Origin: Dehalogenimonas etheniformans | GTDB taxonomy: Bacteria > Chloroflexota > Dehalococcoidia > Dehalococcoidales > Dehalococcoidaceae | Length of the DNA stretch: 64,000 bases | Assembly (NCBI RefSeq): GCF_014672715.2 | Contig: NZ_CP058566.2 | Span: 1,674,001 to 1,738,000, forward strand | Reading direction: 5' to 3' | In this document: piece by piece, positions 5,629 to 18,260 of the stretch | Numbering within the stretch: the stretch's first letter is position 1 | Layout of the letters: the number at the start of each line of letters is the position of its first letter | Translations under genes and position numbers: made by a program | The notes under the pieces: generated by a model | Told to the model about the DNA's origin: nothing | Databases searched by the model: none | What the model saw: only the letters and a program-made list of their open reading frames with translations

Positions 5629-7443
5629 GTGCGAATTGGATTAGTGTCTTGTATTACAATGTTGGATCACGTTAGATCTGTTATTCATAATATTCACGAT
5701 TGCGAATTTACTATTTACCCGATACTGCCGTGTTGTTTGTTCAATGTCGAAGGGGAGACTGTTTGCAAACAAATGGATAAATCAGTATTAGCAAATGATT
5801 CTACAATTATCATATATGGTACCTGTCATCCTGACCTGAACCGGGTCGGGGCAGATTATTATGGAAACAACGTGTACAAGATTCCTGGCAATAATTGTTT
5901 CGAAATCATGCTAGGAGAGGATAAATATTTAGAATACGCGAATTCTGAATCATGGTTTTTGGATGTTTCTTTTATTAAACGATGGAAAAAGGAAATGGAG
6001 AGAGGGTTCGGGGCCAATAGTGCAAATGGGAACGTTTTACAAATTTCTGGGATAAAGCAAATTGACGTATTCAACTACGACAATTCGGAATTCGATGAAG
6101 ACATAATTCGAGATTTCAGTAAATCCTTCGGGATGCCCTATAACTATATCAAGGGAAATACTGACGTATTTAGTGCTGCTTTAAGTACAGCCTTCGAACA
6201 TGTTTGTATAAATGGCGCAACTAATAGAGGTCCAATAATACAACTTAAGAACAACACCGTTCCAATAATATTACTTGAAAATATGAATGATGCGATCTAC
6301 TCTATCGACCCCAAGAAAATGAAGGTGTCATTTATAAGCCCAATTATCAAAAATATAATGGGGATTTCCCCGCAAGAATTTGCAAATTCTTTCCTTTCCA
6401 AATATTCGGAAAAGTATTATTTCGATATAGATCGCGATAAGATCATCGATGAACGCAATGATTTTATTAATGATAGTATAGCCCGTGGGTTCCACCGGCC
6501 TATGGAAAAGGAATATCGCGTTGTGAATGAAAAAGGTCAAATGCAGTGGATCCGTGAAATGTTATGCCCGCAATTTACGAGCAGTGGAGAGATCGAGGCT
6601 TTCATCGGTAAAATAGAAGACATAACCCAACGGAAAAACATAGAACAATCGCTGGAAGATGCTCTCAAAAAGGAAAGTTCGTTGCGGTTAGAACTTGAGC
6701 AACAAATACAGAATCGGAATGATTTTACTAGGGCTTTAGTACACGAACTTAAAACCCCGCTTACACCTATCATTGCTGCGAGTGACGTACTTGTCGTAGG
6801 TATTAAGAATAAATCATTTTTAAAATTAGCTCAAAATATAAATACTGGAGCTGAGAATCTTAATCGACGAATAGATGAATTACTAGAATTAGCACGGGGT
6901 GAAGTTGGAATTCTCGGTATTCGAAAACAATCTTTCGATTGGGTAGAAATGACATCTAACGTTCTCCAATACATTGAACCTCAAGCTAAAAAGAAAAATA
7001 TTGCGGTATCATTTGAATGTGCTGAAATCGCCGGTCTTTTGATGGCAGATAAAGAACGAATCAGGCAAGTATTGTTAAATTTGCTAGATAACGCCATTAA
7101 ATATACTCCAGAAAAAGGCCGTATTACTCTAAAATGTGAAACTATAGAGGACAAGGTCATATTTAAAATTATCGATTCAGGAAGCGTTATCCCTGAGGCT
7201 GAAAGAGCTTCCTTATTTAAACCATACCACCGACTAGAAAGAGACAGGGATAAGTTAAACGGCTTAGGGTTAGGGTTGGCTTTATCAAAGATGATAGTCG
7301 AATTGCACAATGGGAATATTTGGTTCGAAACAGTTCAAGGTCAAGGAAATATATTTGCCGTAAGTATACCCCTAAACGAGTTATTATCGGACGAGGTTCT
7401 AACAGTGAGGAGAAAAACATTCGATGAACTTACTTATAGTTGA
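5629..7443 (+). CDS. DUF1638-PAS sensor histidine kinase
   Basis: A soluble 604-residue sensor kinase. Residues 1-190 resemble DUF1638, a domain otherwise found near corrinoid methyltransferase genes, with YGTCHPDL (residues about 64-71) and the following IPGNNCFEIMLGEDKY. A PAS/PAC region covers about 215-335 (WIREMLCP, IGKIEDITQRK). HisKA has the phosphoacceptor His in ALVHELKTPLTP (about 369). The HATPase shows LLNLLDNAIKYTP, IDSG and GLGLGLALSKM. There is no membrane segment, so the signal is cytoplasmic. The GTG start at 5629 overlaps the upstream stop region and follows GAGGGAGAG. It overlaps the regulator at 7424 by 20 bp. The kinase call is certain; the DUF1638 match is by pattern only. 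Confidence 0.85.
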   Translation: MRIGLVSCITMLDHVRSVIHNIHDCEFTIYPILPCCLFNVEGETVCKQMDKSVLANDSTIIIYGTCHPDLNRVGADYYGNNVYKIPGNNCFEIMLGEDKYLEYANSESWFLDVSFIKRWKKEMERGFGANSANGNVLQISGIKQIDVFNYDNSEFDEDIIRDFSKSFGMPYNYIKGNTDVFSAALSTAFEHVCINGATNRGPIIQLKNNTVPIILLENMNDAIYSIDPKKMKVSFISPIIKNIMGISPQEFANSFLSKYSEKYYFDIDRDKIIDERNDFINDSIARGFHRPMEKEYRVVNEKGQMQWIREMLCPQFTSSGEIEAFIGKIEDITQRKNIEQSLEDALKKESSLRLELEQQIQNRNDFTRALVHELKTPLTPIIAASDVLVVGIKNKSFLKLAQNINTGAENLNRRIDELLELARGEVGILGIRKQSFDWVEMTSNVLQYIEPQAKKKNIAVSFECAEIAGLLMADKERIRQVLLNLLDNAIKYTPEKGRITLKCETIEDKVIFKIIDSGSVIPEAERASLFKPYHRLERDRDKLNGLGLGLALSKMIVELHNGNIWFETVQGQGNIFAVSIPLNELLSDEVLTVRRKTFDELTYS

Positions 7444-8101
7444 AGATGATCCGTTAATAGTAGATGTAATAACCACCATATTTCAAATCGGTTGCCCAAA
7501 CTTTAGAATAAAATCAGCGTGCAATGGGAATAGAGGAATCGATCTTATCTCCACTTTTGAACCAAATATTGTGATTCTTGATCTTGGATTGCCGGACATA
7601 AACGGATTCGAAGTCTTAAAGCAAATAAGGGCGTTTTCTCCGATTCCGGTTCTAATCGTATCTGTTCGAGGTGAAGAGAGTGATGTAGTAAAAGCCCTAT
7701 CTTTGGGCGCTAACGATTATATTATAAAACCTTTTAGACAATTGGAACTATTAGCGAGAGTAAAAAGACTACTAGTAAATAAGCAATTTTATGAGGAGGA
7801 TTTAACTATCTCTTGTGGATCGTTGCATTTTGGAGATTCTTTGAGACAGGTTTGGGATAATGATAAACCTATAAATCTTACAACAAGCGAAGGAAGAATA
7901 TTCTACCTCCTGGTGAAATACGCTAATAAGGTTGTGAGTTATGAAGAATTGTCCGATATACTTTGGGGAGATTATTATGCCGGTGCCCGGGCAAGTCTAA
8001 AAACATATATTTTAAGACTGCGAAAAAAAATAGAGGACAGGACCTCTTCAAAAATGATATTGAATAGTCCCGGGCGAGGCTACATATTGAAAATTAGTTA
8101 G
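7424..8101 (+). CDS. OmpR-family response regulator
   Basis: A 225-residue receiver plus winged-helix regulator, partner of the upstream kinase (20-bp overlap). The receiver has the acidic pair in VEDDP, phosphoacceptor Asp in VILDLGLPD (about residue 51) and Lys in IIKPF. The C-terminal Trans_Reg_C domain shows LTTSEGRIFYLL and ends LNSPGRGYILKIS. In Dehalococcoidia, kinase/regulator pairs beside rdhAB usually control the dehalogenase. Here the nearest rdhAB is 2.2 kb away and on the other strand, so the target is not established. Confidence 0.93.
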   Translation: MNLLIVEDDPLIVDVITTIFQIGCPNFRIKSACNGNRGIDLISTFEPNIVILDLGLPDINGFEVLKQIRAFSPIPVLIVSVRGEESDVVKALSLGANDYIIKPFRQLELLARVKRLLVNKQFYEEDLTISCGSLHFGDSLRQVWDNDKPINLTTSEGRIFYLLVKYANKVVSYEELSDILWGDYYAGARASLKTYILRLRKKIEDRTSSKMILNSPGRGYILKIS

Positions 8102-9076: not shown

Positions 9077-9386
9077 CGCCGATATTTACCTGGAGCGCCA
9101 CCTTCGATCGATATAATGTCTGCTTGAGAAACTTGTGAGTCCATTAACAAACCTAAAACGTCAGTAATTGAAAACGAAAGGCAAAATAAAGGTGAATTGT
9201 CCATCCAAATTTTCCATCCAACGTTGAGCCGCCGAATCTGCATGAATGGGGTTTTGAAAATCTAGTTTTATATCTGGACAAGCCTAGACCGCAAATTATC
9301 GATGGTTTGTCTCGCGGTTAGAATTTGTACGATTCAGTCGTTTCTTCGTACGATGTTTTATCGTGGCCAATTAACAGGGGGAATTT

Positions 9387-10073
9387 GTGAATATTTTGCT
9401 CCTAGAGCCAGTAAAGTCGGACATAGAAGCCATTGGTTCTATTTTCAACATGTGTGTGCCAGGGGTTATTCTCGTTAATGTAGCGACGGGAAATGCAGGG
9501 CTGGTCTCCTTTGAACAACAGCCACCAGACTTAGTAATTCTTGATTTGGCTATTCCAGATGTGGACAGTTTCGAGATGATAAAAGCTATACGGCTGTACT
9601 CCTCTGTCCCTCTCATTGTGATTGATATTGATCATGATGAATCTTCTTTGATCAGGTCGATTGAATTTGGAGCAGATGATTACATCAGCAAGCCTATCCA
9701 CCCATTGGAATTGTTAGCGCGTGCTAAATCAATCTTAAGGAGATCCCGGGGGGTCAACCAAGACCAGTATATAGTTGCAGGCCTACTCCGATTAGATGCG
9801 AGTCTTCATAGGGTTCACGTTGGTGACAAAGAAGTTCGTTTAACTAGGACGGAAAACATCATCCTTCGCCATTTGATGGAGAATGCCGGAAATATAGTTA
9901 CGTATAGCAATCTCGCCCATAAAATCTGGGGCGACGATTGGACAGAATCATCAGCAACTATCCGTGTTTATATAGACCGAATTCGGAAAAAACTGGGCAA
10001 TGATTCTAAAAGCCCATCAATGATTGTTACTGAGACGGGTCTTGGGTACCGATTAGTTAAACCCATTTCGTAA
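9387..10073 (+). CDS. Orphan OmpR-family response regulator
   Basis: A 228-residue regulator with receiver (phosphoacceptor Asp in VILDLAIPD, Lys in ISKPI) and winged helix (LTRTENIILRHLMENAG, C-terminal TETGLGYRLVKP). The usual N-terminal acidic pair is replaced by LLEPVKSD, so Mg binding and phosphorylation may differ from standard receivers. It starts at GTG 9387 after AGGGGGAA. No kinase is adjacent. It is a close paralogue of the regulator at 17285-17971, which shares the altered acidic pocket. It converges on rdhBA across a shared terminator. Control of the dehalogenase is plausible but unproven. Confidence 0.92.
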   Translation: MNILLLEPVKSDIEAIGSIFNMCVPGVILVNVATGNAGLVSFEQQPPDLVILDLAIPDVDSFEMIKAIRLYSSVPLIVIDIDHDESSLIRSIEFGADDYISKPIHPLELLARAKSILRRSRGVNQDQYIVAGLLRLDASLHRVHVGDKEVRLTRTENIILRHLMENAGNIVTYSNLAHKIWGDDWTESSATIRVYIDRIRKKLGNDSKSPSMIVTETGLGYRLVKPIS

Positions 10074-10344: not shown

Positions 10345-10629
10345 TTATTCTTTTCTGCGGTTGTATGTTCGTAGGACGATAAGATCCAAAATGAGTGCAA
10401 TGCCACCGAAGATAGCAAGGTACATAAATGCACTCTGGAACTCCATCTCCACACGCATAGACGCATACATATGCTGGAAAACAGACAGCACTAAAAGCAG
10501 ACTTAAAGCCATTAAAACCCACTCCCACCATTTAAAGTTTCTATTCTTAAAGTGAGTGTAGGTAACAAACCAAACTGCAGCTCCGCCAAGCACTGCGCCA
10601 ACTAAGAGATAATATAAAACACCACCCAT
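10345..10629 (-). CDS. rdhB: Reductive dehalogenase membrane anchor
   Basis: A 94-residue protein with three hydrophobic helices (about residues 5-22, 34-50 and 64-85) and the usual RdhB composition, including the KWWEWVLM segment. RdhB anchors the exported RdhA on the outer face of the cytoplasmic membrane. It begins about 20 bp after the rdhA stop on the same strand, the standard rdhAB order. Family identity rests on size, topology and position, and all three agree. Confidence 0.93.
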   Translation of the reverse strand: MGGVLYYLLVGAVLGGAAVWFVTYTHFKNRNFKWWEWVLMALSLLLVLSVFQHMYASMRVEMEFQSAFMYLAIFGGIALILDLIVLRTYNRRKE

Positions 10630-10650: not shown

Positions 10651-12309
10651 TTAAAAAATATCTACGCTTGCGCCGCGAATTGGGTTTACCGAAGCCCACC
10701 ATTCATCACCGTTTGGGGAGTAACGCGGGCCATATCCGAATGTTTCTTCCGCATTCCTAAAGAAGCCGTTGAATGCTGGTGTGGTGGCAAGTGTCGCCCT
10801 AACCACGTTATGCACAAAAGAGTTGTTAGACATAGTGAAGAAGGGGCAGTATACCTCACAATTGGTACAAACGATACATTTGTGATAATCAAGGTGCCAT
10901 CCCTCATAACCGCTCACGCAATCCCAGTAAGGCGAGTCATAGCGTGGGCCCTCGTGGGATATGGCTTGTCCGGGACATTTTTCGGCACAGATCCCACAGG
11001 TCTTGCAGAACTCACGGATACCGGCATCAATCGGTTTGGTAGGGGCGAGAGGCAGGTCTGTAAGCATTCTCAAAGAACCCTTGGTATTGGAGCCGTAGCG
11101 TGGCTCAATAATACTGGATACGCGGGCTTGTTCGCCAAGGCCGCTAAGGTTACCGAAGGCACCACCGGGCCCCCAAGCCTCGACACCACCGCCCATGGAG
11201 TTATATCCCAAGCCTGAAATGAATTGCAGCAGGCGTCCCTCTACTTCGGTAAATAGCGGGTAGGCAATGCAGGAAGCAACATCCATGCCTATCGAATCCG
11301 AATATTTGAAGCGCTTCTCAGGAAGCATAACGGTATAGGTGAAGATGTTATCCAGCGCATTGGGTACTACTATCTTATCATCACCACCGAAACGCTTATA
11401 GCTGTAATGCCCCTGGTCTGCGGGTATATCCTCAAACACAATGGGTATGGGATAATTATCCACCGGGACCGGGTATTCAATATACTCAGTCGTTTTCATA
11501 ACGTGATGCCAGGGCGCAAAGAGAAAAGGTTGAGCTTTGGTGAAAAAGATCTTCTTTACATTATCTGTTATCTTAATGGCACCGATGGAAGATGCTCCAA
11601 AGTATCGTGTTGCAGTGCGCATCATGATCAAGTTTTCCTCAGGCGTACCCTGCCACTTCGGGTAATCCTGAAGCTTGACGTCTGTATAGCCAAATTCATG
11701 CCAGCCATTTAGGCCGGTCATGGTGCGCAGTGAGAGATACGGACGGGAGCCATTGTAACGATTACTTCCGTAAAGCGGATTATTCCAGATATTATGCGAG
11801 CCAGCTGTAGCGGCATAAATTAAAGCATCTTCCTTACGGTCACCAAAGCCCTGCCAACCAGCGTAGTAATCCGGATCAATATTGTCTTTCATCCAGTTTA
11901 TCCCTGTTTGATACCACAACGTGTCAATCCGTTTCTTCCCTTGGGTACCTTCTATTACCGAATCAACAATTGTATGTCGTCTGTCGTTATAATCTGGTGA
12001 CAGGTAATTTTCAGGCAGCACATAGGCTCCTTGGTTATTCCAGCCGCTGTATCTGGTTATCAGGTTCCAGTCAATATTACAGGTGGGGTTTTCATGTTCT
12101 CTGGTTTTAACCCACCACGGCTCGTTGTTTACCTTATTAGCATGGTCACCCTCTAAGGCTTTACCTGCAGATAGCACGTCATCAAGATCCTTAAACTCAA
12201 CCGGCAGATTATTGTTCGCAAGTACAGCGGCACCCAGCCCACCTGCACCTGCCAGACCCAAGCCCTTCATAAAATCTCTTCGGCTTATGCTTGAATGGAA
12301 ATTGGACAT
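10651..12309 (-). CDS. rdhA: Reductive dehalogenase catalytic subunit
   Basis: A corrinoid- and Fe-S-dependent enzyme that removes halogen from organohalides as terminal electron acceptor on the cell exterior. From ATG 12309 it has 552 residues. The Tat signal SRRDFMKGLGLAGAG is near residues 8-22. Two 4Fe-4S motifs are at residues 435-445 (CKTCGICAEKC) and 478-488 (CIVCTNCEVYC). The YGSNTKGSLRMLTDLP segment is typical of the family. ATG 12309 follows AAGGAG; an in-frame GTG at 12381 has an even better AAGGAGG but would add 24 residues before the Tat signal. It lies downstream of nrdJ on the same strand with a 181-bp gap. The substrate cannot be predicted. Confidence 0.96.
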   Translation of the reverse strand: MSNFHSSISRRDFMKGLGLAGAGGLGAAVLANNNLPVEFKDLDDVLSAGKALEGDHANKVNNEPWWVKTREHENPTCNIDWNLITRYSGWNNQGAYVLPENYLSPDYNDRRHTIVDSVIEGTQGKKRIDTLWYQTGINWMKDNIDPDYYAGWQGFGDRKEDALIYAATAGSHNIWNNPLYGSNRYNGSRPYLSLRTMTGLNGWHEFGYTDVKLQDYPKWQGTPEENLIMMRTATRYFGASSIGAIKITDNVKKIFFTKAQPFLFAPWHHVMKTTEYIEYPVPVDNYPIPIVFEDIPADQGHYSYKRFGGDDKIVVPNALDNIFTYTVMLPEKRFKYSDSIGMDVASCIAYPLFTEVEGRLLQFISGLGYNSMGGGVEAWGPGGAFGNLSGLGEQARVSSIIEPRYGSNTKGSLRMLTDLPLAPTKPIDAGIREFCKTCGICAEKCPGQAISHEGPRYDSPYWDCVSGYEGWHLDYHKCIVCTNCEVYCPFFTMSNNSFVHNVVRATLATTPAFNGFFRNAEETFGYGPRYSPNGDEWWASVNPIRGASVDIF

Positions 12310-12490
12310 GGATTTATTTCTCCTTCTTTCTTCTGGTATCTGTGCTGATTTTTCCGGTCTCTCCCGGATGCCAAGCTGCACTCGCGCCTCCTTCGTAGCT
12401 ATCACATGCACATTCAAGGGTTGGAAAAAACAAAGCTACTCAAGCTATGTTAGATATTCTTCCTTTCTCCAATAACTTTGATTTCTAACG

Positions 12491-14284
12491 CTAATCGTTT
12501 TTGAACCGTCGGCCAACAAGATTCATTCCAGTCTCACTGGTACAAAGTGGTTGCAAGTCCCGGCTCTTGTCCCTGTACACTGTGATTCCTTTAAGTCCTT
12601 GCTCGTATGCCATCATAAAAACCTTGGCGATATCTGCTCTGGTGGCGCTCTTGGGGAAGTTCACGGTCTTACTAACGGCATTATCGGTTTGCCGCTGGAA
12701 AGCTGCCTGAACTCTGACGTGCCAGTCTGGAGACACCCTATGCGCGGTCACGAATATCTTACGTATGTCTTCGGGGATCTCTTTCCTGAGATGAAGGTGG
12801 TTTGATGTTACCAACTGCTCAAAAAGCTCACGGGTGAAGAAGCCGCGTTCCCGGGCTGCTTCCTCGAAATATGGATTGATCTCCAGCAGATTTTCCCCTT
12901 CTAGGATGTTGCGAACGAAAACCGCTGCGAAGATTGGTTCGATGCCGCTAGATACCCCGGCGATAATTGATAAGGTTCCAGTCGGGGCGATGGTGGTGCA
13001 GCAGGCGTTGCGCATCGGCATCCCCTCGGCTTCATAAACACTGCCGCTCCAGGCCGGGAACACGCCTCGTTCAATTGCCAGTTGCTGCGAAGCCTTGTGT
13101 GCCAGGTCGGTGATAAACTCCATGACTTCTTCAGCCACGGTGATTGCCTTTGTCGAGTTATAAGGGATGCCGAGTCGTATGAGCATGTCGGCAAAACCCA
13201 TGACGCCCAGACCGATCTTTCTGGTTCGCTTCGTCGCCTGCTCGACTTCGAGGAAGGGGAGACGGTTGATATCGATTACGTTATCAAGGAAACGTACTGC
13301 CAACGGGACAATCCTTGAAAGCTTTTCGAAATCGATCTCAAGTCCCTCGGGTTGATTCTTGAGCATCATGGCAAGGTTGATAGAGCCAAGATTGCAGGAC
13401 TCATACGGGAGTAAAGCCTGCTCGCCGCAGCCGGTGATAGTTTTCATCCGTCCTAGGAGAGGTGTAGGATTGTCGCGGTTAACGCGGTCGATAAACACGA
13501 ATCCGGGGTCACCGGTTCGCCAAGCCTGATCGACAATGAGGTTAAAGACATCTCTAGCTCTAAGCCAGAGCGTCGCTTTCCCGTTCCGAGGATCAATGAT
13601 GGGATAATTCTCGCCCGATCTCACCCTCGACATAAAATCGTCCGTAACCGACACTGAGTTATGGAAATTTGTTAGCGCCAACGGGTCGTTCTTGGCCTTA
13701 ATGAAATCGAGGATATCCGGATGATCCACACTAAGGACTACAGAGTTGCATCCGCGGCGGACGCCGCCCTGTTTAATATAATCTGCTGCTCTGGCAAAGA
13801 CATCGATAAGGGCTACAGGGCCACCAGCGGCATTTGGATGATCGCCCACAGAACTGCCCTTGGCGCGCACCTGCGAAAAGTCATAACCGATGCCGCCGCC
13901 GCTTTTATGGATGAGAGCGGTATATTTTACTGCGTCGAACGTCTCTTCAATAGAATCATGTACCGGGAGAACGAAACATGAGGATAACTGACCGTCTTCG
14001 GTACCGGCATTCAAGAGCGTAGGCGAGTTTGGCAGGAACTCCAAATTTATCATAAGCTGATAGAAATTCTTTTCTACCATCGCAACATCGGCATCGGGAT
14101 CGTATTTGAATTCGGCTGACGCAACCGCTTTGGCTACGCGATGGAACATATCCTCAGGGGTTTCGATGATCTCACTTGCACGATTGCGCCTCAGATAACG
14201 TTTCTCAAGTACTCTAAGAGCGTTCGCCGAAATGAGCATCTTTTTTGGAACTGATTCTTCAAGTGTATTGGGCATTTGCATCAC
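12491..14284 (-). CDS. nrdJ: Adenosylcobalamin-dependent (class II) ribonucleotide reductase
   Basis: It reduces ribonucleotides to deoxyribonucleotides using a thiyl radical formed from adenosylcobalamin, so it needs no oxygen and no second subunit. The 597-residue protein shows LEFLPNSPTLLNAG, the redox Cys in LSSCFVLPV, the radical-site segment TGCGEQALLPYESCNLGSIN and the C-terminal GITVYRDKSRD. It has no N-terminal ATP cone. The C-terminus stops soon after YRDKSRD and has only one Cys, so the usual C-terminal CxxC reductant tail is missing and a separate reductant would be needed. It overlaps the DUF2795 gene by 4 bp and sits upstream of rdhA. Confidence 0.95.
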   Translation of the reverse strand: MMQMPNTLEESVPKKMLISANALRVLEKRYLRRNRASEIIETPEDMFHRVAKAVASAEFKYDPDADVAMVEKNFYQLMINLEFLPNSPTLLNAGTEDGQLSSCFVLPVHDSIEETFDAVKYTALIHKSGGGIGYDFSQVRAKGSSVGDHPNAAGGPVALIDVFARAADYIKQGGVRRGCNSVVLSVDHPDILDFIKAKNDPLALTNFHNSVSVTDDFMSRVRSGENYPIIDPRNGKATLWLRARDVFNLIVDQAWRTGDPGFVFIDRVNRDNPTPLLGRMKTITGCGEQALLPYESCNLGSINLAMMLKNQPEGLEIDFEKLSRIVPLAVRFLDNVIDINRLPFLEVEQATKRTRKIGLGVMGFADMLIRLGIPYNSTKAITVAEEVMEFITDLAHKASQQLAIERGVFPAWSGSVYEAEGMPMRNACCTTIAPTGTLSIIAGVSSGIEPIFAAVFVRNILEGENLLEINPYFEEAARERGFFTRELFEQLVTSNHLHLRKEIPEDIRKIFVTAHRVSPDWHVRVQAAFQRQTDNAVSKTVNFPKSATRADIAKVFMMAYEQGLKGITVYRDKSRDLQPLCTSETGMNLVGRRFKND

Positions 14285-14493
14285 AGTCCCCCAAAAACGA
14301 ACCGGCTCGGGAAAGTAGCCATAAAGCTCAGATCGGACGCGGTATACCGACCTTCGGGCAGACTGGACAGAAACCCGAGTAAACGAATTGGCGCTCCGTC
14401 CGATTCGGCTTTGTGGACCATGTCGCCCTTGGTTAAAGAGTCATCGGTCCCTTTGAGTATTGCTTCTAATCTGTCGAGATCTGCCTTGATCAT
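14281..14493 (-). CDS. Small DUF2795-like protein preceding nrdJ
   Basis: A 70-residue soluble protein whose C-terminal 50 residues (SLTKGDMVHKAESDGAP, then LSSLPEGRYTASDLSF) follow the DUF2795 pattern: helix with a K..A...GAP turn, then LP...Y....DLS. It is a paralogue of the 92-residue protein at 14669. Its stop overlaps the nrdJ start by 4 bp, so translation is coupled. The structured RNA at 14521-14640 lies directly upstream. Function of the domain is unknown; position suggests a role with NrdJ or its regulation. Confidence 0.75.
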   Translation of the reverse strand: MIKADLDRLEAILKGTDDSLTKGDMVHKAESDGAPIRLLGFLSSLPEGRYTASDLSFMATFPSRFVFGGL

Positions 14494-14520
14494 TGAGTCC
14501 TTATCTACCTTTACAGACTA

Positions 14521-14640
14521 GCAAGCACTGCGGTGAACCCCGATTACATCCAGGGAACACACGGGAGGGGTTTCACAGCGTATCAAGCCGGGCTGAGTCG
14601 CACAGCCAGGCACCCCGGTTTCCCCCACCGCATGGCTTGC
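14521..14640 (-). ncRNA. Structured leader RNA candidate upstream of DUF2795-nrdJ (copy A)
   Basis: About 120 bases closed by a long stem: GCAAGC/GCTTGC outside and GCGGTG/CACCGC inside (14626-14631 with 14530-14535). Inside are GGGAA/TTCCC pairing and a hairpin GGCTG-tgcgact-CAGCC. A diverged second copy at 16399-16500 keeps the inner closing stem (one G-U pair if read leftward, an A-C mismatch if read rightward), GCTGTGAAA, CGACTCAGCC and TGTAAT. This supports a leftward RNA. It lies 27 bp before the DUF2795 start in the nrdJ unit, so a riboswitch or attenuator is plausible. A canonical B12 box was not found. Confidence 0.6.
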
Positions 14641-14668
14641 AGGAAAACTGCATATTAAATTGTAAAAG

Positions 14669-14947
14669 CTAATCCTGCCCGAAAAAATAAGCGCTCGCGA
14701 AAGCCGCGAAGCTGAGATCTGATGGACAGTTGTAGATACGTTCCGGTAAACGATAAACGTAAAATTTCATAAGGTTTTCTGGAGCGCGGTTGGCTTCGGC
14801 CTTCTTGATAATCGACTCTTTCGACGCCGGATATTCAACACCACTAACGAAATATTCGATTACAGCGGCATTCACCTTAGGCTCCTCAACGAATCCTTGT
14901 GCCCATCCATTGACACTTTTCGTCTGCCGTTTTTCAACCGTAATCAT
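14669..14947 (-). CDS. DUF2795-like protein, 92 aa
   Basis: Residues 43-90 match the DUF2795 pattern (YPASKESIIKKAEANRAP, then LPERIYNCPSDLSFAAF). The N-terminal 40 residues are family-unlike and lysine/valine rich. There are no membrane segments. It starts 2 bp after the receiver gene's stop, so the two are co-translated. A diverged copy occurs at 16530-16733 next to a decayed receiver, in the same order. Function unknown; pairing with a stand-alone receiver suggests an output or adaptor role. Confidence 0.75.
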   Translation of the reverse strand: MITVEKRQTKSVNGWAQGFVEEPKVNAAVIEYFVSGVEYPASKESIIKKAEANRAPENLMKFYVYRLPERIYNCPSDLSFAAFASAYFFGQD

Positions 14948-14949
14948 TT

Positions 14950-15375
14950 TCAGGTCCCAACTTTCTTATTTGCCCAAATACCGAAAGCTCTTGATAAATC
15001 ATGATTAGGCAATTCTTTTGATTGATCGGTTATCGTTTCAATTGCAAACACCAAATCGGCCATTATGATAGGTTTGAACACATAATCAGATTTACCCATA
15101 CTAAGTACATGTGCTGTATCTATTTGAGTCCCTAAAGGCTCGGAGACAAAAATGATGGGAATTTCCGAGAATCTGCGGATTTCCATTATCGCGGCCATTG
15201 TGTTTTGCATCGCGCCATCGATTATTATCAAACTAACATCAATAAGTTGTTCTTTTGTAAGAAAACCCGACCCATCCCCCAATAAAACCTCATTGGAATT
15301 CGGCCATCTAAATCGAATACTCATGATAATTGTTGCGGCAGCTTCTGCATCATCTGTCACTACTAAGATTTTCAC
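14950..15375 (-). CDS. Stand-alone receiver (CheY-like) protein
   Basis: A 141-residue receiver with no output domain. The acidic pair is in VVTDDAEAA, the candidate phosphoacceptor Asp in LIIIDGAMQ (about residue 53) and the Lys in VFKPI. The usual Thr/Ser is probably the Ser in IIFVSEP. It heads a leftward unit receiver - DUF2795 - structured RNA - DUF2795 - nrdJ. A decayed copy is at 16735-17156. It may relay phosphate or sequester a kinase for the orphan regulators nearby; this is inference. Confidence 0.8.
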   Translation of the reverse strand: MKILVVTDDAEAAATIIMSIRFRWPNSNEVLLGDGSGFLTKEQLIDVSLIIIDGAMQNTMAAIMEIRRFSEIPIIFVSEPLGTQIDTAHVLSMGKSDYVFKPIIMADLVFAIETITDQSKELPNHDLSRAFGIWANKKVGT

Positions 15376-15533
15376 GGAGATAAGTGTAACTCTCGCGCCT
15401 TACTAAATGATTAAATATTGTGACATTACATTACGTTACCTGTTTACAATGTTACAACGATGAATCAGTACATAACTCTATATAACTTATTCGTTGATTG
15501 TAAGTAGCGTTAAGACTGGCGCAGGGGCACCGG

Positions 15534-16172
15534 ATGAGTAACGATCTACAGATCCGCAGCTTTTTGAAGAGACTTCGTTTGCCGGTGGTGGCTCAAAACT
15601 ATTCACGACTCGCGGAAGAGGCGGCGGCCAATAACCAGACGTTTCAGGACTACCTCTTCGCTCTGCTGGAGGGTGAAGTCATCCAACGAGAAGATCATGC
15701 TCAAAAATTGAGACTATTGAGAGCCCTTTTCCCGGTGATCAAGAGCCTGGACAACTTCGACTTCAGCGCTATTCCATCAGCCAACAAAGCGCCGATACTC
15801 GAGCTGTCCCGCAGCACTTTTATCGACCGGCGCGAGAATGTGATTCTTATCGGCAGCTACGGCACCGATAAAACTCATCTAGCCATCAGTTTGGCGGCCA
15901 GCACTTGCCGCCAAGGCAAAAAGGTCCGTTTCTATACCGTCGCCGGACTGATTAACGAGCTGCTGGAAGCCGGATCAAAGCTTAAACTAGGCAAACTGGA
16001 ATCGGCCTTGGCCAAGTGTGATCTGATACTCCTGGATGAACTGGGCTTCGTGCCTTTCGGTAAAGAGGGCGCCGAAGCCCTGTTTACTTTCTGCTCTTCA
16101 CGCTACGAGCGAAGTTCTTTGATAATTACCACCAATTTGGACTTTGCACGCTGGAAAGAGATCTTCAATTGA
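15534..16172 (+). pseudogene. istB: Truncated IS21-family helper ATPase (IstB)
   Basis: The first 212 residues of an IstB/DnaC-like ATPase that helps IS21 transposition. The N-terminal helical domain (RLPVVAQNYSRLAEEAAANN) and the Walker B segment LILLDELGFVPF are present. The Walker A reads GSYGTDKTH where GxxGxGKT is expected, so the essential glycine is lost. The protein stops after NLDFARWKEIFN, about 40 residues early, and no istA lies upstream. It separates the two copies of the receiver/DUF2795/RNA module and is a dead remnant. Confidence 0.85.
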
Positions 16173-16398
16173 GCGTATTTGTTCTCAAATTCCCCAAAAT
16201 ACGAACCTAATTGGGAAGAAGTCATAAAATACAGGTCTCTCGCGAGATATTGGCCTTCTGGTAAGTCGAGATAAAGGACTACAGTGTGTTAGGCAGATAG
16301 TTCATCATTTGCCTTACTATTGGGCCAGTTTTAGCATTTCCTTATCCAAATTCACCTTTGATTCTTTCTTTTATCTAGACATTCATATGGCAAAATTT

Positions 16399-16500
16399 GC
16401 AGTGATACCCCAATTACACTCGGGGGAACACGCTGAAGGGATTTCACAGCACATTAAGTCGGCTGAGTCGTTGCAGGACACCCTGATATTCCTCCACCGC
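16399..16500 (-). ncRNA. Second, diverged copy of the structured RNA (copy B)
   Basis: It aligns along its length with 14530-14631. The closing stem GCGGTG/CACTGC is kept with one wobble, and ACGACTCAGCC, GCTGTGAAAT, GTGTTCCC and GTGTAATTGGGG are conserved. It follows the diverged DUF2795 copy, as copy A does. Downstream (16173-16398) there is no gene, only the broken istB end, so this copy probably controls nothing now. Confidence 0.5.
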
Positions 16501-16529
16501 CCCGCGCCTTGCGGACACTTTTTTAGATG

Positions 16530-16733
16530 TTACTCTATTTGTGTCCGAAACGTAGGCAGTAGTTTTAGGAGGATTTTACGGCGTCCAGAGTTTAGGAGAT
16601 TGTAGATACGAATTAATAACGATAAAATCGCAATGCGATAAGATATTGTTTCCCTCGGGCCCGCATTTAACGTCTCTTTCTCGAGTCCTCTAAGGAACTC
16701 CTTACGACTCAGCTCGGTAGGTAATTTTTGCAT
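16530..16733 (-). pseudogene. Diverged or decayed DUF2795 copy
   Basis: A 67-codon frame from ATG 16733. LSRKEFLRGLEKETLNAGP and the later RIYN line up with SKESIIKKAEANRAP and ERIYN of the 14669 gene, but the C-terminal half is scrambled and the DLSF segment is gone. It follows the decayed receiver as in the intact module. Probably non-functional. Confidence 0.45.
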
Positions 16734-16734
16734 T

Positions 16735-17156
16735 CTAGTTATTACTGCAATGAAAGGTTCCAGGAATGCTTTTTGATGAATCGAGATCTGTAAATTCTTC
16801 TGACTGGTTAGATAACGCTTCAATTGCAGACACTAAATCCGTTTTTGCTATGGGTTTAAACAGATAATCAGATATAATTAGACTTAATACACGAGCGGTG
16901 TCCATCTGATTCCCAACAGGACTGGACATAAAAATGAGACGGACTTCCGAGACTCTGCGTATTGCCTCAATTGAAGTTATTATGTTTTGCATCTCCCCAT
17001 CAATTATTATTAAAGCCAAAATCACCAATTGTTGCCTTTGTTAGAGATTTACCTTTGTTTCTAGGACAACCTAATTGGAATTTAGCCATCGAAGCGGATA
17101 CATACGATAATTGTTGAAAGGGCGTCTACATCATCTATCATTGCCAAGAATTTCAT
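16735..17156 (-). pseudogene. Decayed copy of the stand-alone receiver gene
   Basis: From ATG 17156 the sequence reads MKFLAMIDDVDALSTII, matching the 14950 protein's MKILVVTDDAEAAATII. It then hits in-frame stops in the stretch equal to FRWPNSNEVL and needs a frame change to resume as LALIIIDGEMQN and YLFKPIAKTDLV. The remaining open part (16735-17028) keeps the Asp and Lys positions. It lies beside a second orphan regulator, showing that a regulator/receiver/DUF2795 block was duplicated. Confidence 0.8.
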
Positions 17157-17284
17157 ATACATGATTGTAACTGTCACACCTCGCAAATTGATTACCTTTT
17201 ATAACACTATGATACGTTGCATGGTGCATTCGAGATCTTTATCTAAGTCTTTATAACTTTTACTGTTTTAAAATGGTAGTGAAG

Positions 17285-17971
17285 TCATGGGGTTAGTTTA
17301 ACTAAACGGTAACCAAGTCCTGTCTCAGTAAATATCATTGATGGGCTTTTAGAATCGTCACCAAGTTTTTTCCGAATCCGGTCTACATAAACCCGAATAG
17401 TCGCTGATGCTTCGGTCGAATCATCACCCCAAATTTTCTGGGCGAGATTACCGTGTGTAACTGTGTTCCCAGCATTCTCCATTAAATGCCGTAAAATAAT
17501 ATTTTCGGTTCGAGTTAAACGAACTTCTTTGTCACCCACATACACCCTGTGAAGGGACGCATCCAACCTGAGTAGACCTGCAACGATGTACTGGTCCTGA
17601 TTGGTTCCCTGGCGTCTCCGCATAATTGATTTTACCCGGGCCAACAGTTCCAAGGGGCGTATTGGTTTGGTAATGTAATCATCCGCTCCAAATTCGATCG
17701 ATCTAATCAAAGAAGATTCGTTATGGTTGCTATCAATCACGATGATAGGAATGGATGAGAATAACCGTATCGTTTTTATCATCTCAAAACCATCGATATC
17801 AGGTACAGCCAGATCAAGAATTAGTAAATCCGGTGTCTGTTGTTCAACGGAGATCAATCCTTCGGTTCCTGTCGCCACTGTCACGAGGGTAATACCTGGT
17901 AAAAACATTGCAAATATAGAACTGATAGCTTCTACATCCGATTTCACGGGCTCTACGACTAAAATGCGCAC
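17285..17971 (-). CDS. Orphan OmpR-family response regulator, paralogue of the 9387 gene
   Basis: A receiver plus winged helix of 228 residues from GTG 17971 (preceded by AGAGGGCAA, matching the start context of the paralogue). A longer ATG start at 17995 would add 8 residues. The phosphoacceptor Asp is in LILDLAVPD and the Lys in ITKPI. The acidic pair is replaced by VVEPVKSD as in the paralogue. The C-terminus TETGLGYRLVKLTP is nearly identical to the other copy. No kinase is adjacent. It is probably a recent paralogue serving the same or a neighbouring target. Confidence 0.9.
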   Translation of the reverse strand: MRILVVEPVKSDVEAISSIFAMFLPGITLVTVATGTEGLISVEQQTPDLLILDLAVPDIDGFEMIKTIRLFSSIPIIVIDSNHNESSLIRSIEFGADDYITKPIRPLELLARVKSIMRRRQGTNQDQYIVAGLLRLDASLHRVYVGDKEVRLTRTENIILRHLMENAGNTVTHGNLAQKIWGDDSTEASATIRVYVDRIRKKLGDDSKSPSMIFTETGLGYRLVKLTP

Positions 17972-18260
17972 AGATTGCCCTCTCTTTAACGACATAAGAA
18001 AATGTTGCTAGAAGAAATGACGAGCTTTTTTTAAAGCCGATTTGAACGAATCTCACTCTCGCTTAATTTGTCAGCTGAGTCATGTCAACAAAATATAAGA
18101 TTTTTAATACCGGAATTTTATCCTAAAAGTATTACAATCTGATTAAACTGTGTATCATTACATTACAATTGAAGAGTATAATATAACTTTTCACTAAATA
18201 CATATTACAATCCGAAACTATTGGTTCCTATTTATCGTTATTCCGCTATCATTTTGTCCG

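Follow-up and report, generated by a model that had tools for sequence, protein, structure and literature searches.

What does the structured RNA that lies just before a reductive dehalogenase (rdh) operon of Dehalogenimonas etheniformans do, and does it belong with the receiver and DUF2795 genes beside it? The RNA is found in a 64,000-nt stretch of contig NZ_CP058566.2 (positions 1,674,001 to 1,738,000; hereafter the window), in which an earlier sequence-only reading had noticed a duplicated block of receiver, DUF2795 gene and RNA and had proposed a conserved functional module. From our analysis, the RNA, which is about 129 nt long, belongs to an uncatalogued, strongly conserved structured family; with a probability of roughly 55%, we take it to be a structured mRNA leader acting in cis, most likely as a riboswitch. 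Labels beginning with L denote the loci searched and those beginning with G the genomes searched, G000 being this genome (2.07 Mb).

Structure and distribution of the RNA

The intact window copy (14517-14645, minus strand) scored 134 bits with covariance model (CM) R1, which was built from 19 sequences of the genus. A long helix, P1, closes the fold, which further holds a variable hairpin (P2), a helix P3 (CCAGGG/CCCUGG), and a CCCG/CGGG pseudoknot, and the near-invariant stretches of the family (GGGGAAA, CUUAAAU, CCCUCCCGUG and GUAAUCGGG) would be gathered by the pseudoknot into one core. Two-sided changes were found at 15 pairs of the 19-sequence genus alignment, against 6.0±1.4 in shuffles. 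In a 90-sequence alignment, which was fitted to P1, P2 and P3 and hence leans toward those helices, 31 of 34 pairs had two-sided changes, 95% of cells paired, and 616 cells were compensatory (two-sided) against 186±14; shifting the partner by 1 column abolished the covariation signal. Although absent from the aligning model, the pseudoknot paired in 99.4% of cells, with compensatory events in four sequences (L115, L121, L124, L128: UCCG/CGGA, GCCG/CGGU, CCAG/CUGG, CCGG/UCGG). G-U cells outnumbered the mirror A-C cells by 172 to 25 (nominal p 4e-28, the cells not being independent), and by 41 to 4 within the genus; therefore, the structure works as RNA, and on the same strand as the genes that follow it. 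Conserved, covarying secondary structure on the coding strand, as riboswitches have, was thus observed. Two candidate elements were dropped on the way to this fold: a 3' hairpin from RNAalifold, in favour of P3, which covaries in five of its six pairs, and a first pseudoknot (AACCCC/GGGGUU) showing no compensatory change, which was replaced by CCCG/CGGG with its four.

Copy counts are lower bounds owing to sampled genomes and strict filters: this genome has five intact copies and one decayed, and a DNA search gave 28 matches, of which 27 were real, in six of the eight Dehalogenimonas genomes searched, the match at L065 being spurious. Of 393 Dehalococcoidia genomes searched with R1, 25 contained the RNA; three of these belong to a sister genus (presumed Dehalococcoides) and hold two copies each. 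Among 84,980 species, a pattern derived from the core recovered 48 stretches, almost all of them under the title Dehalococcoidia or Dehalococcoidales; binning or naming probably accounts for the titles 'Aenigmatarchaeota' (L202) and 'Deltaproteobacteria' (L212), and a Lachnospiraceae match (L170) lacked the motif. The improved model R2, run on 400 Chloroflexota genomes, matched in Dehalococcoidia only, bar one low-complexity stretch (L219) that was discarded. No Rfam 15 match was obtained by cmscan of the window, of the RNA alone, or of 17 distant loci, and text searches of a literature collection gave no earlier account of the RNA.

Placement of the RNA before variable operons

In the window, the RNA occupies the short gap between the gene of a DUF2795 protein (type a; 14669-14947, minus strand; PF11387 E 1e-9, 38.6 bits, above the cut-off of 25) and an operon that comes directly after the RNA, consisting of genes for a DUF2795-like protein (type b), a class II ribonucleotide reductase, and RdhAB. 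The DUF2795a stop is ∼25 nt 5' of the RNA, and relatives occupy the equivalent spot in L067, L069-L071, L074 and L076. Because DUF2795 stops are only about 15-35 nt upstream of it, the RNA is probably inside an operon.

Nearly all Dehalogenimonas copies are placed on the same strand as the differing genes that they precede, 10-110 nt from a start codon, and the RNA ends roughly 10-60 nt before the start codon in most loci, the remaining few being at 90-330 nt or having ambiguous starts. ORF (open reading frame) calls were mechanical, which leaves doubt over some of the start codons and over a few target genes, and the gene tallies and terminator-like hairpins given here were read by eye from the outputs. 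The next gene in Dehalogenimonas encodes a ribonucleotide reductase at ∼13 loci (directly or past a small DUF2795 ORF), a radical S-adenosylmethionine (SAM) or B12 radical-SAM protein at ∼9, RdhA (in some cases past a small ORF) at 3, and a YtkA-like/FeS pair at 1, and rdhA lies about 5 kb away or less at most loci. In related families, the RNA is found before genes for Mo-hydroxylases with a TAT-type (twin-arginine translocation) 2Fe-2S subunit (L114, L116, L118, L123, L230), molybdate-type ATP-binding cassette (ABC) transporters (L134, L117), tripartite ATP-independent periplasmic (TRAP) transporters (L127, L143, L205), oligopeptide ABC systems (L138, L174, L194), an aldehyde ferredoxin oxidoreductase (L200), a corrinoid protein (L179), and a CoA-transferase (L185). 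Tandem copies were found at L138 and L194, and copies repeated along one cluster at L069, L070, L074 and L127. By position, the RNA is thus where a leader would be, shortly before same-strand genes. In Dehalococcoides, copy 1 precedes a 26-28 aa hydrophobic ORF kept in three genomes and then a terminator-like hairpin, while copy 2 is directly followed by such a hairpin. The small ORF (MSxLGLWLILIAxIxSI...; L121 5767-5681, L145, L096; three Dehalococcoides-like genomes) is a possible unannotated small membrane peptide.

The proposal of a receiver-DUF2795-RNA module stands in part. The order does recur at other Dehalogenimonas loci, a check set beforehand, with receiver and DUF2795 both upstream of the RNA at L071, L069/L070 and L076 as in the window, and DUF2795 without a receiver at L067 and L074. 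Nevertheless, most RNA copies have no upstream receiver or DUF2795, and outside Dehalogenimonas neither was noticed beside the RNA, apart from occasional two-component genes. There, a catabolic or transport gene usually comes next on the same strand. What the RNA is conserved with is the downstream operon and not the receiver, and the arrangement is more aptly called a leader RNA inside an rdh operon under two-component control.

Weighing the explanations

The strand, the position, and the repeated association with different operons argue for a cis-acting leader. Among such leaders, the evidence best supports a small-molecule riboswitch: the unpaired core is near-invariant, there is a pseudoknot, and copies occur in tandem, tandem and repeated copies being typical of regulatory aptamers. 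We infer that the RNA is transcribed, binds a ligand, and switches expression in some set direction: a small molecule would bind the conserved core and alter the output of the downstream operon. In Dehalogenimonas, the main level of control would be translation or the stability of the mRNA, since the ribosome-binding site is ∼10-50 nt past P1 and no terminator was seen between them. In other genera, expression platforms are suggested by hairpins resembling intrinsic terminators, which follow the RNA directly in L122 and L139. With 90 aligned sequences and a covariation-supported pseudoknot, this is an unusually strong orphan riboswitch candidate, for which ligands could be sought directly in vitro without growing difficult organisms.

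Several observations weigh against a riboswitch. The downstream genes (rdhA, ribonucleotide reductase, B12 radical-SAM, Mo-hydroxylases, aldehyde ferredoxin oxidoreductase, TRAP and oligopeptide transporters) make a target range unusually broad for a metabolite riboswitch, so that no ligand can be named. No conserved expression platform was found 3' of P1 in Dehalogenimonas, and predictions for the Shine-Dalgarno (SD) sequence vary from leader to leader, between paired and open; SD sequestration was dropped as a shared mechanism since the predictions had no consistent pattern. The Dehalococcoides copies serve only the 26-28 aa ORF or precede a terminator, and the copies at L178 and L125/L212 have no obvious target gene. 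It is plausible, at somewhat less than even odds, that the RNA represents a new class of riboswitch, confined for the most part to Dehalococcoidia, which senses a global metabolic signal (cofactor state, a nucleotide or a second messenger) and gates variable catabolic genes including rdh operons. If true, this would add an RNA layer to the control of organohalide respiration. Dehalogenimonas reductive dehalogenases help clean up chlorinated solvents, and a conserved RNA before several rdh operons, and in related bacteria before genes for Mo enzymes and transporters, would offer a new point of control.

The wide target range would also suit a global regulator, and a regulatory protein, perhaps the neighbouring DUF2795 protein, may bind the RNA and control the operon, as DUF2795 genes flank the RNA at many Dehalogenimonas loci. 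We regard such a protein-binding leader as unlikely: outside Dehalogenimonas, no DUF2795 gene was noticed next to the RNA, and the highly conserved unpaired core with its pseudoknot resembles a small-molecule pocket more than a simple protein site. More doubtful still is an element that senses nothing and either modifies RNA polymerase for processive antitermination or protects long catabolic mRNA. It would agree with the many unrelated long operons headed by the RNA, with copies repeated along one cluster (L069, L070, L074), and with the position between cistrons in the window, yet as an antiterminator it would make little sense of the orphan Dehalococcoides copies that run into a terminator-like hairpin (L122; L121 past the tiny ORF).

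A divergent member of a known riboswitch class, for cobalamin or the molybdenum/tungsten cofactor, is improbable, even though the RNA shares with the cobalamin riboswitch (RF00174) corrinoid-enzyme genes as targets in Dehalogenimonas, and with the molybdenum cofactor (Moco) riboswitch (RF01055), likewise a leader RNA, the Mo-hydroxylase and molybdate-type transporter targets of some related families and the string CCUCCCGUGU, also present in Moco riboswitches of Dehalococcoidia. Besides the absence of an Rfam match, the architecture differs; the Moco riboswitch has other helices and no common CM signal, and the RNA has no Mo link in Dehalogenimonas. No cobalamin match was obtained by cmscan at E up to 10, the Moco score was not reached, and R2 run in reverse against 6 cobalamin-like and 19 Moco loci gave no match even at E 10. 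Cobalamin riboswitch identity was discarded on these CM tests in both directions, and a Moco-like origin, considered for the ACCAGGG and CUCCCGU strings and the downstream Mo genes, was rejected because the reciprocal tests were negative and the folds differ. Besides the RNA, this genome has ordinary Moco and cobalamin riboswitches, the cobalamin elements being one clear and five sub-threshold. The latter (21-31 bits, two in tandem; G000:C1:924171-924307, 924387-924522, 360983-361127, 364878-365017 and 247377-247515) are possibly divergent corrinoid riboswitches.

The least probable explanation, a mobile or recombination site with palindromic structure acting as DNA, could draw on the IS21 gene between the two RNA copies and on the divergence of rdhAB inside a 13.7-kb block otherwise near-identical in two species, but it is largely refuted by the wobble asymmetry (172:25), which together with the fixed orientation toward the downstream gene and the pseudoknot covariation requires RNA, and the divergence begins and ends near 12.4 and 10.4 kb, away from the RNA.

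The leader RNA was also compared with what has been described for rdh genes. The rdhA motif WRC-34-1, a 'weak riboswitch candidate' with 18 representatives, mostly from Dehalococcoides, is described as a structured RNA immediately upstream of rdhA in Dehalococcoidaceae (Narunsky et al. 2024, PMC11109978). The present RNA has two convincing loci per Dehalococcoides-like genome (n=3), none of them seen ahead of rdhA, and in most cases other genes come after it. Judged by placement, it is probably distinct from the rdhA motif. In Dehalogenimonas, rdh control is attributed to two-component (rdhPS), MarR and CRP/FNR regulators, the only riboswitch named in the excerpts of that study being Moco, at moaA/moaC (PMC13390414). 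A kinase-regulator pair (5629-8101) and two OmpR-type regulators (9387-10073 and 17285-17995) flank the window rdhAB, and because these genes match the rdhPS arrangement reported there, the RNA would be a second layer, with the two-component regulators and the receiver setting transcription.

The duplicated block and neighbouring genes

On the minus strand, the window locus begins with an OmpR-type regulator (17995-17285; PF00072 and PF00486), a decayed receiver (∼17156-16735), and a decayed RNA (16512-16386), and continues with the receiver, DUF2795, RNA, DUF2795-like protein, reductase, rdhA and rdhB. The order that the sequence-only reading had called intact at 15375-14521 was borne out, with a single-domain receiver at 15375-14950 (PF00072 Response_reg E 3.3e-6, 27.7 bits, just below the cut-off of 30.2), DUF2795 at 14947-14669, and the RNA at 14645-14517. 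The second block, noted at 17156-16399, is decayed: the receiver remnant has a partial domain and 2 internal stops (50% identity), and the RNA remnant scored 48.6 bits with R1 (E 2e-9) with its pseudoknot pairs broken (UCAG/UGGG), but a profile scan detected no DUF2795 protein, although the DNA of that part aligns in patches. Alignment of 15460-14500 with 17240-16385 scored 176.5, far beyond chance (13.1±1.4 in 100 shuffles, maximum 19.5), and was collinear from ∼50 nt upstream of the receiver start through the RNA end; another DNA comparison gave 242 nt at 71% identity. At the DNA level, the two blocks are therefore confirmed as homologous and collinear, and the duplication as real. The orphan OmpR regulator and the istB gene had also been recognized correctly; no kinase gene is adjacent to the regulator at 17995-17285, and the IS21 IstB ATPase gene (15534-16172, plus strand; PF01695 E 2e-52) is inserted between the blocks.

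On the other side of rdhAB, a second OmpR-type regulator (9387-10073, plus strand) was identified by domain scan and DNA comparison as an inverted copy of the first, and both form a 685-nt inverted repeat, 78% identical (9378-10062 and 17296-17980), flanking the rdh operon. A PAS-like histidine kinase (5629-7443, plus strand), assigned by reading the ORF sequence and not by scan, is paired with a further OmpR regulator (7424-8101, plus strand; domain scan). RdhA (10651-12417, minus strand; PF13486 E 1.5e-16) has a TAT signal and 4Fe-4S motifs, and the hydrophobic 94 aa ORF directly 3' of it (10345-10629, minus strand) is a probable RdhB membrane anchor, a relative of which is also 3' of rdhA in L066.

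The nearest solved structure to the ribonucleotide reductase (12491-14284, minus strand; PF02867 E 1e-124) is the B12-dependent enzyme 1xjk/1xje, and cysteines in its CFVLP, CGE and ESCNLGS stretches align with 1xjk; it has the barrel domain and the cysteine positions of a class II (B12-dependent) enzyme. This 2-Mb genome holds ten full-length class II paralogues at 55-100% identity, three of them with the RNA leader. A sister OmpR-receiver-reductase cluster (L034 7220-7453; G000:C1 about 1987.2-1987.5 kb) has a reductase 81% identical and no detectable RNA copy. The DUF2795-like protein between RNA and reductase (14281-14493, minus strand; PF11387 E 5e-5, 23.6 bits, cut-off 25) aligns with other DUF2795 ORFs. 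By position, DUF2795 proteins fall into three groups: one upstream of the RNA, with members ending in FxSSYFFGQD or similar, one between it and the reductase, and one downstream of the reductase (window ORFs 14281-14493 and 14669-14947; L031, L067-L076).

Window positions 18400-4734 and L066 1-13672 (G005) form the 13.7-kb block that is near-identical in two species, with 0-1 mismatches per 500 nt. Only rdhAB, at about 12.4-10.4 kb, stands out, with a divergence of roughly 9-14%, a pattern that points to cassette-like dehalogenase exchange within the shared block.

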